A DNA stretch of 64,000 nt from Gallionellales bacterium GWA2_54_124 (GTDB lineage: Bacteria > Pseudomonadota > Gammaproteobacteria > Burkholderiales > Gallionellaceae). This document shows positions 55,333 through 61,499 of this stretch, piece by piece (within the stretch, counting starts at the first letter, position 1; each line of letters starts with the position of its first letter). The notes below the pieces were generated by a model. That model was not told the DNA's origin, searched no databases, and was given only the letters and a program-made list of their open reading frames with translations. The position numbers and the translations under genes are program-made. The stretch covers positions 1 to 64,000 of the forward strand of contig MGWO01000001.1 in the NCBI GenBank assembly GCA_001801025.1, in the 5' to 3' direction.

Positions 55333-55421
55333 GCCCGGGTGGTGAAATTGGTAGACACAACGGACTTAAAATCCGTCGCCTTGAAAAGGGCGTACCGGTT
55401 CGATTCCGGTTCTGGGCACCA
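55333..55421 (+). tRNA. tRNA-Leu(TAA)
   Basis: 89 nt with long variable arm; anticodon loop CTTAAAA; terminal CCA. Confidence 0.95.
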
Positions 55422-58435: not shown

Positions 58436-58799
58436 GCCCCCATTTCCCCCATCCACCCTCCCTGTAGGCTTTTGTTCAAAACCATCGTGTAGATGTAGAT
58501 TATGTTGAATTATCGGATGGCGGCGCAGCCCCACACCCTAGACCAGGGGTTGAGGGGCGCGACAATGAGCGCACCCAAGGGTGGAGGGGATTATCTCCTC
58601 CCGCGTGCCGCGCAGGCAGACAAGCGAAGCGCGTCAGCATGGCAAGCGACAGCGCAGCCACGAGCGGCTTGCCGCTCAACAAAAAGCCGCGCAGCGACTT
58701 TTTCATTCCGTGCGATTTGATCTGGCTTCATCGCGACCGATTTTGGCCTCGATGACAAGCGGTCGTTTTTTCAGATAAACGGTAAAAAGTCGTTATTTT

Positions 58800-58857
58800 T
58801 TATGAGTTGCACAGTAACTCATAAATATTTTTTACGAAAGACACAGTAACTCATAAA
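58800..58857. promoter_or_regulatory. AACTCATAA palindrome plus 16-bp direct repeat upstream of mob genes
   Basis: TTATGAGTT-N7-AACTCATAA (58800-58824) and direct repeat CACAGTAACTCATAAA at 58810-58825 and 58842-58857. Confidence 0.6.
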
Positions 58858-59124: not shown

Positions 59125-59514
59125 ATGAACAGGTACTCGAGTCGGGGACGAAATCAGCACAACAAAGTTGATGCGCAGAAACGCACAATCTGCGTCTCTG
59201 TACGTTTGTCGGCAGAAGAGGCCGACCTTTTGGACACCCGCCGCAAAACGATGCAGCGTGGCACATACCTGCGTTCATGCTTGTTGGACAAGTTACCGCC
59301 GATCATTCACCCGCTGAATATCAAAACAGCATCAGATTTAGGGCGCGCCATTGGCAATCTAGCTACTGTTGCCACCTCGATGCGTGCCGGGAAGTACATC
59401 GGCGACTCTGAAATTCTAACCCTCATCAAAGATTTGCGACTTCTTTTAGTGACTGGATCAGCTTCTCTGATTAGCTATTACCACTCAGATTCGAACGAAG
59501 AGGCGGAAGAATGA
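59125..59514 (+). CDS. MobC-like plasmid mobilization accessory protein
   Basis: 130 codons; TICVSVRLSAEEADLLDTRRKTMQRGTYLRSCLLDKLPP (RHH-like); overlaps relaxase start. Confidence 0.7.
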   Translation: MNRYSSRGRNQHNKVDAQKRTICVSVRLSAEEADLLDTRRKTMQRGTYLRSCLLDKLPPIIHPLNIKTASDLGRAIGNLATVATSMRAGKYIGDSEILTLIKDLRLLLVTGSASLISYYHSDSNEEAEE

Positions 59515-61499
59515 AAGGCATGCAAAAAATCAAGCGCGGAACCGGTTTCAGAGGTTTGCTTGAATACTCTGTTGACCACGATGATGGACACATCATCGGC
59601 GGCAACATGGCGGGCACAACACCCCGCGAGATTTCACGCGAATTCGGCACTGCTCGTCGCATGCGCCCGGACATTGACAAGCCAGTCTGGCATAACAGTC
59701 TCCGTTTACCAGCTGGTGAGCACCTTTCTGATGAAAAATGGAATGAAGTTGCTAAGGGCTACATGCACGGTATGGGCTTTTTAGATGCGCATCAATTTGC
59801 TCTTATTAAACACGACAGCCGCGAAGGTGAACACATTCACATTATCGCCAATCGCGTGAGTCTGAACGGGGATGTGTATTTAGGAAAAAACGAGAATCTG
59901 AAGAGTACGAAACTTATTTCTGATCTCGAACAAAAGCACGGTCTTCACGTCACCGTCGGCGCAGAACTTGACCACAAAACAGACCTGCCATCGACAAAAA
60001 CAGACAAACGCAAGCCAAAGCGCGGCGAGGTAGAAAAAGCAGTGCGCACTCTAGTGAAGCCCGCGCGCATGGCCATACAAGACGCCATTGATAACGTAAT
60101 GGAAAATGCAGATTGCCGCACGCTTGAAGACCTGACAAACCGGCTTGCCGAACAACGTATCACTGTCCGTCCATTCATATCTGATGGCGAAATCAAGGGG
60201 CTCAGTTTCACGTCAAATGACAAGGCCGGTAACGAAGTTGGCTTTTCTGGCTCGCAACTCGGCGAGCAATACAAATACAAGAACCTGATTAACAGAATGG
60301 AGAATAAAAATGAGCAAGATCGAAGATTTGAAGCTGTTGCCGACACCCGCAGAATTGCGGAAACAGATCCAGAACCAATCGGCAACGATGGACGATTGGC
60401 TGGACGCGCGACCGCAAATAATCAAAAGCTTCAAAAACCTGCAGGCGCAAATCAAAAAACTGGAAAGAGAGGTGGCGGAATTAAGGAGAACAAAAATAAC
60501 CAACCCGCTGATTTAACATCAAAAATTAACGATTTAACGCCGTTCGACATTGAGCGAAAAGTGAAGGAGTTTATTATGGAACAAGACAAAATTGAATTTG
60601 ACATGGAATTTATTCGACAGCAAGCACGAATCGCCACAAAACTGACGGGCGATTTCGATGCGTTTTGTGCTCACCTAGATAAAATGGGCATTCAGGTCGA
60701 GAAGTACAGAGAAGACCCAGACCCAAAAACTGGCAAGCTCGGTGACGTTCGCGGGATCAGCTACAGCCATAATGACCGCAAAATCGGTGGCGGCAAGCTG
60801 GGTGACGAGTTTAAGTATTCGGCCATCATTGCTGCTCTCAAATCACCGCCGCCGCAGCCAAGCAGAGTTAAAAAACTGACCAGCATTTTAACTGGGCAAC
60901 CAACAACACCAGCCTCAAAAACTATCACCCCGCAATGCATGGACGGGATCGGCACGCATCGCTATACATCGCCGAATCAACCACAACCAACCGAGTCCGG
61001 CCAGCTTTTTGCCGGACTGGAATACCAACACAAGGACGGCAAATATAACCTTTACTGGCCTCGTGCTGACAAGCCCAGTTTTGTCTACGACCCCAATGTG
61101 TGCAAAGTAAATCTTACGCATGAGCATCGCGGCGGCGGCAATGGCCGTGACCTCAAAAAGTTGTTCGATGTCGCAGTCGAAAAAGGCCTCGATAATCCGA
61201 CCCTAAAAATTTTTGGTTCAGACCAATTCCGGCACGACGCTGCGCAAGAAGCGGCACGACGCGGACTCAAGGTCGATATGAGCGATCCGACCGTCCGCGA
61301 TGCATACATCTCCCAAACACTTCAAATGAGCGAGCAATCGCTTTCAGAAGACGGACTGATGAGTATGCAGGCCGAAGACATTCAAGCAGACGAAGCCGAA
61401 GCCGAGCGCCGCCGCATCGAGCAAGAGGAAGCATTAAAAAACGAGGACGGCGATCAAGATGATGATAAGTCCGACCGTCAACAACACATGCACGCCTAA
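59511..61499 (+). CDS. MOBP-type relaxase with C-terminal LPD7-like domain
   Basis: 662 aa; HQFALIKHDSREGEHIHIIANRVSLNGDVY (relaxase His motif III); C-terminal KKLFDVAVEKGLDNPTLKIFGSDQFRHDAAQEAARRGLKVDM. Confidence 0.85.
   Translation: MKGMQKIKRGTGFRGLLEYSVDHDDGHIIGGNMAGTTPREISREFGTARRMRPDIDKPVWHNSLRLPAGEHLSDEKWNEVAKGYMHGMGFLDAHQFALIKHDSREGEHIHIIANRVSLNGDVYLGKNENLKSTKLISDLEQKHGLHVTVGAELDHKTDLPSTKTDKRKPKRGEVEKAVRTLVKPARMAIQDAIDNVMENADCRTLEDLTNRLAEQRITVRPFISDGEIKGLSFTSNDKAGNEVGFSGSQLGEQYKYKNLINRMENKNEQDRRFEAVADTRRIAETDPEPIGNDGRLAGRATANNQKLQKPAGANQKTGKRGGGIKENKNNQPADLTSKINDLTPFDIERKVKEFIMEQDKIEFDMEFIRQQARIATKLTGDFDAFCAHLDKMGIQVEKYREDPDPKTGKLGDVRGISYSHNDRKIGGGKLGDEFKYSAIIAALKSPPPQPSRVKKLTSILTGQPTTPASKTITPQCMDGIGTHRYTSPNQPQPTESGQLFAGLEYQHKDGKYNLYWPRADKPSFVYDPNVCKVNLTHEHRGGGNGRDLKKLFDVAVEKGLDNPTLKIFGSDQFRHDAAQEAARRGLKVDMSDPTVRDAYISQTLQMSEQSLSEDGLMSMQAEDIQADEAEAERRRIEQEEALKNEDGDQDDDKSDRQQHMHA
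60310..60516 (+). CDS. Nested out-of-frame ORF inside relaxase gene, possible MobB-like coiled-coil protein
   Basis: 68 aa MSKIEDLKLLPTPAELRKQIQNQSATMDDWLDARPQIIKSFKNLQAQIKKLEREVAELRRTKITNPLI; GGAG SD 7 nt before ATG. Confidence 0.55.
   Translation: MSKIEDLKLLPTPAELRKQIQNQSATMDDWLDARPQIIKSFKNLQAQIKKLEREVAELRRTKITNPLI
60576..61499 (+). CDS. Possible internally initiated C-terminal relaxase product
   Basis: In-frame ATG preceded by GTGAAGGAG with 6-nt spacing; would encode about 307 aa beginning MEQDKIEFDMEFIRQQ. Confidence 0.45.
   Translation: MEQDKIEFDMEFIRQQARIATKLTGDFDAFCAHLDKMGIQVEKYREDPDPKTGKLGDVRGISYSHNDRKIGGGKLGDEFKYSAIIAALKSPPPQPSRVKKLTSILTGQPTTPASKTITPQCMDGIGTHRYTSPNQPQPTESGQLFAGLEYQHKDGKYNLYWPRADKPSFVYDPNVCKVNLTHEHRGGGNGRDLKKLFDVAVEKGLDNPTLKIFGSDQFRHDAAQEAARRGLKVDMSDPTVRDAYISQTLQMSEQSLSEDGLMSMQAEDIQADEAEAERRRIEQEEALKNEDGDQDDDKSDRQQHMHA

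Follow-up and report, generated by a model that had tools for sequence, protein, structure and literature searches.

A short reading frame nested in a relaxase gene, probably a descendant of nested mobB that lacks the membrane helix

Does a reading frame of 68 codons, lying wholly inside a relaxase gene in another frame, encode a protein, and how does it relate to the small genes already known from such positions? The question arises in the genome of Gallionellales bacterium GWA2_54_124, in a 64,000-nucleotide stretch of contig MGWO01000001.1 that we call the window. The mobB gene of RSF1010 is contained, in a different frame, within mobA/repB and is essential for mobilization (PMC2200642), and mobB and repB each overlap mobA (PMC5572225). 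An earlier note on the window had described the 68-residue frame, with a GGAG site 7 nt from its ATG, as encoding a basic, heptad-rich protein where the relaxase has a low-complexity linker. All of these particulars are found in the DNA. The frame is +1 relative to the relaxase gene, its product has a net charge of about +4 and a heptad-like C-terminal half, and the relaxase linker that it overlaps is rich in Q, N, K and G. The features of the gene and of the nested frame are:

59511 to 61499, forward strand: relaxase gene, 662 aa, with a MobA/VirD2-like relaxase domain, linker, repeated domain and LPD7 (Pfam PF03432, 9.7e-26; PF18821, 3.9e-6)
60299 to 60302, forward strand: GGAG, Shine-Dalgarno-like site identified from the sequence, 7 nt to the nested ATG
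60310 to 60516, forward strand: nested ORF, 68 aa, ATG at 60310 and stop ending at 60516, the proposed MobB-like protein without a transmembrane (TM) helix (conservation with the homologue L086, reached in 1 of 20,000 shuffles; orthologous start)
60421 to 60489, forward strand: predicted coiled-coil core of the nested protein, residues 38-60 (alignment of the short forms; AlphaFold2 helix 13-64)

In the predicted RNA fold both the Shine-Dalgarno site and the nested ATG are unpaired. A single-sequence AlphaFold2 model of the nested protein has a short helix at residues 3-7, a break at LPTP and a long helix at residues 13-64, with a pLDDT of 93-98 for residues 31-60. Searches with the protein against 72,556 plasmids and against 159 genomes of the same family (tblastn) returned chance coiled-coil matches only, and scans of Pfam and NCBIfam gave only weak coiled-coil matches, all under the curated cutoffs. 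Coiled coils match one another easily.

An open frame of this length is not in itself remarkable. When the codons of the relaxase gene were shuffled synonymously, holding the relaxase protein fixed (n = 10,000), the nested frame stayed open across its 68 codons in 5857 shuffles (59%). Somewhere in the relaxase gene, 7607 (76%) had a +1 ORF of at least 68 aa beginning with ATG, and in 2326 (23%) such an ORF had a Shine-Dalgarno-like start. Since 59% of shuffles reach it, open-frame length was dropped as proof of a gene; the ORF alone shows nothing unusual against the shuffles and is no evidence of a gene, so that comparative evidence is needed.

Related relaxases were therefore gathered from plasmids, viral contigs and genomes. 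In their alignment, the nested start of the window falls on the same base as the starts of nested mobB-like genes in 15 relaxases (14 and L074), just past the motif S-Q-L-G...E-Q-D-R. These long nested forms are those of Pseudomonas (L001, L002, L011, L012 and L024), of other plasmids (L061, pGNB2, IncQ2; L064, an Enterobacter IncQ2 plasmid; L062, Komagataeibacter pGXY040; L063, Marinobacter; L065, Klebsiella pBSKP4) and of other genomes (L037, L040, L043, L044 and L074). All 15 are +1 ORFs of 113-230 aa with a hydrophobic helix in the C-terminal part, and most begin M-[STN]-K-x-E, a motif that the N-terminus of the window protein, MSKIEDLKLLPTP, also fits. That of L037 matches PF17511 (Mobilization_B) at 1.5e-11, as well as records annotated 'IncQ-type mobilization protein MobB'. 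As in IncQ-type MobB, the window's nested gene sits directly after the relaxase domain. In the window the relaxase and MobC genes are adjacent. The Pseudomonas plasmids NZ_CP077984 and NZ_CP118679, together with pGNB2, pGXY040, Marinobacter p36788 and Klebsiella pBSKP4, share the nested frame, the start position and the M-[STN]-K-x-E motif with the window, but their nested ORFs are two to three times longer and carry the C-terminal hydrophobic helix.

The N-terminus of the window protein fits those of the long forms: on a profile of the N-termini of 13 of them, 53 of 5000 relaxase-preserving shuffles scored as high for the window and 42 of 5000 for L086. A hidden Markov model of the long nested forms scored the window protein weakly (6.8 bits), a value reached in 22 of 1998 composition shuffles and 57 of 1711 synonymous shuffles, and pairwise similarity along the body was weak and mostly not significant. 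The window protein has no C-terminal membrane helix (maximal 19-residue hydropathy of -0.29, where the 14 scored long forms range from 1.66 to 2.74) and no match to PF17511 at E up to 10, a profile whose cutoff several unquestioned long nested forms also miss. Because both properties were tested and neither was found, we do not class the protein as a member of MobB. By position and N-terminus it appears instead to be a divergent, shortened relative of nested mobB without the TM helix. An independent origin was ruled out, since the mobB-like genes of related relaxases begin at the very same site. Of the suggestion in the earlier note that this might be an independent or divergent instance of such nesting, it is thus the second half that stands, on the shared start and the fit of the N-terminus to the profile.

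The strongest comparison is with L086 (G1288:C30), which was retrieved through relaxase similarity alone, the two relaxases being 44% identical across 277 residues. It carries a nested +1 ORF of 57 aa in the same position (MTKLDLIKNLPTPLEMSQVIPTLKALHQKIQILEKKVLRLEAEKKQPQPKTKRFRLF, beginning MTKLDLIKNLPTPLEMSQVIPTLKALHQKIQILEKKVLRLEAEKK), also without a membrane helix. Both nested proteins have M[ST]K and K.LPTP.E, and they agree at all a/d positions of the heptad core; the L086 protein is 11 residues shorter, with an 18-residue gap in the middle and a longer basic tail. With both relaxase proteins held fixed, the nested-frame score of the pair is 58, against a shuffle mean of 25.7, and was equalled in 1 of 20,000 shuffles; with the first 7 codons removed, 8 of 10,000 shuffles matched the observed score. 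Control segments elsewhere in the same gene pair showed no excess similarity by this test. The +2 frame at the nested site also shows an excess, though a less extreme one (11 of 5000), so that conservation of the DNA here is partly not frame-specific.

Constraint is also visible in the relaxase codons. In the same nucleotide alignment, 18 of 44 positions are identical in the nested frame and 8 of 42 in the relaxase frame. The third positions of relaxase codons differ at 15 of 44 sites in the overlap, against 168 of 246 in the relaxase domain (Fisher p 3e-5, in an alignment built on the nested frame). The overlap thus reverses the usual order, the third positions, normally the fastest, being here the slowest. 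Over the first 16 codons, which are free of gaps and involve no choice of alignment, they differ at 4 of 16 sites against a shuffle mean of 10.6, and 2 of 4000 shuffles were as low. The earlier note had proposed aligning homologous relaxases for such overlap constraint, and had named a nested frame broken by stops in close homologues, lack of RBS conservation and lack of overlap constraint as signs against a gene; in L086, the closest homologue, the ORF is intact, starts at the same place and shows overlap constraint. Our conclusion from this set of results, in which clear conservation over the full length of the ORF is seen in one homologue only, is that, as far as the aligned sequences go, the nested frame is conserved against L086 more than the relaxase demands, and that the relaxase linker is relaxed.

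A third short coiled-coil ORF is nested in L075. Its coiled coil resembles that of L086 (16 of 5000 shuffles), and L44, I48, L51, V55 and L58 of the window protein, which have a/d spacing, are invariant across all three short forms. The L075 frame has no N-terminal motif, fails the N-terminal profile, and has a weaker start with a poor Shine-Dalgarno site. Additional scans of viral contigs yielded no further short forms.

In a tree of the relaxase domain, the three short forms make one clade (ultrafast bootstrap 90, SH-aLRT 93), which sits near long forms. Around it is a larger group where long nested genes with the TM helix are widespread, and to which enterobacterial elements and L042, a group that has no nested gene, also belong. 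In these more distant relaxases the nested frame is missing altogether, and the nested gene is therefore not universal in the family. L042 (G000:C7:832213-832818) is a second relaxase of the same genome as the window, 53% identical across 199 residues; it has no nested gene, and has an insertion ahead of the post-relaxase domain. On the simplest reading, the ancestor carried a nested mobB, which became shorter in one lineage and disappeared from another, the details of the tree being unsure because L075 and L040 sit on long branches.

From these comparisons we judge it probable that the nested ORF is a translated and selected overlapping gene, a short descendant without the TM helix of the nested mobB of IncQ-type/MOBP mobilization modules, which may be termed a 'mini-MobB'. 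The likeness to nested accessory genes such as RSF1010 mobB and the mobB and mobD of ColE1, to which the earlier note had pointed, gains support from the conservation in L086 and the shared mobB start site. Three other readings of the same data have to be weighed. The frame could be an untranslated by-product, its linker codons happening to have no +1 stops and its start being left over from relaxase codons (Y/N-E-Q-D-R) that are conserved. Its length and openness are ordinary under synonymous shuffling, ATG readily arises where GAG comes after an AAT or TAT codon, and other relaxases of the family manage without a nested ORF. Yet L086 has lost the E-Q-D-R motif of the relaxase (it has DDKTRPDQ) and still keeps the nested M-T-K-L-D-L-I-K-N-L-P-T-P-L-E, which argues that conservation of the nested N-terminus is not a by-product of the relaxase; with the rarity of the nested-frame score among shuffles also against it, we regard this explanation as rather unlikely. 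Less credible still is a decaying remnant, an ancestral long mobB that has lost its C-terminal half and membrane helix and is now non-functional. The helix present in all 15 long relatives and gone from the window form, and the place of the short forms near long ones in the tree, are what such decay would leave; however, the short form without the helix is common to divergent relaxases (window, L086 and L075, with end branches of 0.7-2.0 changes per site) that have retained the heptad core, and so appears to have persisted without accumulating stops.

The remaining reading, to which we give a small but appreciable chance, grants that the gene is functional and assigns it a role like that of MbeD/MobD, as a small coiled coil without a TM helix acting for example in exclusion or relaxosome bridging, its coiled-coil part possibly of separate origin. 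MbeB and MbeD of ColE1, encoded in mbeA, are likewise mobilization accessory proteins whose genes use other frames of a MOBP relaxase gene, and MbeD is small and has no TM helix. The weak similarity to the bodies of the long MobB forms speaks for this reading. So does the character of the window protein, a small coiled coil with no TM helix, in which we take it to be closer to MbeD than to MobB. Against it, the protein matches neither of the Pfam families MbeB and MbeD at E up to 1, and its start site and N-terminus agree with those of the long mobB-like forms.

If the nested ORF is indeed a shortened mobB, ribosomes would start at the GGAG-ATG on the mobC-relaxase mRNA, and the product would dimerize as a coiled coil through residues 38-60, with the N-terminal M-S-K-I-E...LPTP segment docking on the relaxase or relaxosome. 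It would work on the relaxosome together with MobC and the relaxase, and may support nicking or relaxosome stability, or present the relaxase to the coupling protein of a helper plasmid. The product would itself be unable to anchor to the membrane, and anchoring, if needed, would have to come from another protein. What the comparison brings to light is a clade in which the nested protein consists of the N-terminal motif and a coiled coil, the membrane helix being gone. By natural variation, a portion of MobB that may work at the relaxosome is here set apart from the membrane-anchoring portion, which leaves a small, testable protein.

The likeness to RSF1010/R1162 (IncQ) extends beyond a small other-frame gene lying wholly within the relaxase gene, in that RSF1010 has a further start in the relaxase frame downstream, which gives the C-terminal product RepB', and the window has a candidate one for its LPD7 part. 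The features concerned are:

60051 to 60308, forward strand: post-relaxase domain copy 1, relaxase residues ~181-266, ending just ahead of the nested start (self-comparison)
60564 to 60569, forward strand: AAGGAG, 6 nt to an internal ATG at 60576 in the relaxase frame, a candidate Shine-Dalgarno site for making the C-terminal part as a product of its own
60576 to 61499, forward strand: candidate C-terminal protein of 307 aa with LPD7, possibly initiated separately, in the relaxase frame (PF18821, 8.2e-7 on the C-terminal part)
60579 to 60860, forward strand: post-relaxase domain copy 2, relaxase residues ~357-450, with which the putative C-terminal product would begin (self-comparison)

The two domain copies match each other at E 5e-7 in a two-sequence blastp search. 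Initiation at 60576 may yield the LPD7-bearing C-terminal part as a protein of its own, in the way that RepB' comes from mobA/repB in RSF1010. The window differs from RSF1010/R1162 in that its nested protein has 68 aa, no C-terminal TM helix and no PF17511 match, and in that the putative C-terminal product has LPD7 rather than a primase. L086, which shares the relaxase, the nested coiled coil and an LPD7-like C-terminus with the window, has AAGGA 8 nt ahead of an in-frame ATG that itself lies 14 nt past the nested stop. The window and L086 show such an internal start near the nested stop; it is not general in the family, where the only other instance seen was a weak AAGG in L002/L011. That the locus makes three products, as mobA-mobB-repB' does, is plausible but unproven. 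More tentatively, a distinct class of soluble 'mini-MobB' proteins might have taken the place of membrane-anchored MobB in one clade of relaxases that carry LPD7 and belong to integrative mobilizable elements. One locus would give three overlapping products (relaxase, nested coiled coil and separately initiated LPD7 protein), and the 'mini-MobB' would serve the relaxosome at a helper type IV secretion system without a membrane tether; we consider this possible, though on balance doubtful. Close relatives of the relaxase C-terminus were not found in plasmids and viral contigs, nor were those of the 222-aa gene downstream.

Around the locus is an integrative element of ~11.3 kb, sited in tRNA-Leu(taa), bounded by 62-bp repeats and carrying an integrase, a D5/DUF5906 primase-helicase gene that precedes mobC, mobC itself and the relaxase gene:

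55360 to 55421, forward strand: 3' part of tRNA-Leu(taa), 62 bp, left attachment repeat, with a perfect direct copy at contig positions 66637-66698 (L067 3888-3949), outside the window
58797 to 58827, forward strand: imperfect 12-bp inverted repeat TTTTTATGAGTT(7 nt)AACTCATAAATA upstream of mobC, a candidate oriT feature (script scan)
59125 to 59514, forward strand: NikA-like MobC auxiliary gene, overlapping the relaxase start (PF21983, 4.5e-7)
contig 65485 to 66546, reverse strand: tyrosine integrase beside the right repeat copy, outside the window

No secretion system was noted among the listed ORFs, and the element is therefore presumably mobilizable rather than self-transmissible.

Nested mobB genes are known already from IncQ plasmids, and the position can now be traced through Pseudomonas, Klebsiella, Marinobacter, Komagataeibacter and genomes of the window's own order. 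Annotation often misses these genes: the long nested mobB-like gene is absent from the listed annotation of the plasmid records of L001, L002, L061, L063 and L065, and in those of L062 and L064 it is labelled a hypothetical protein.
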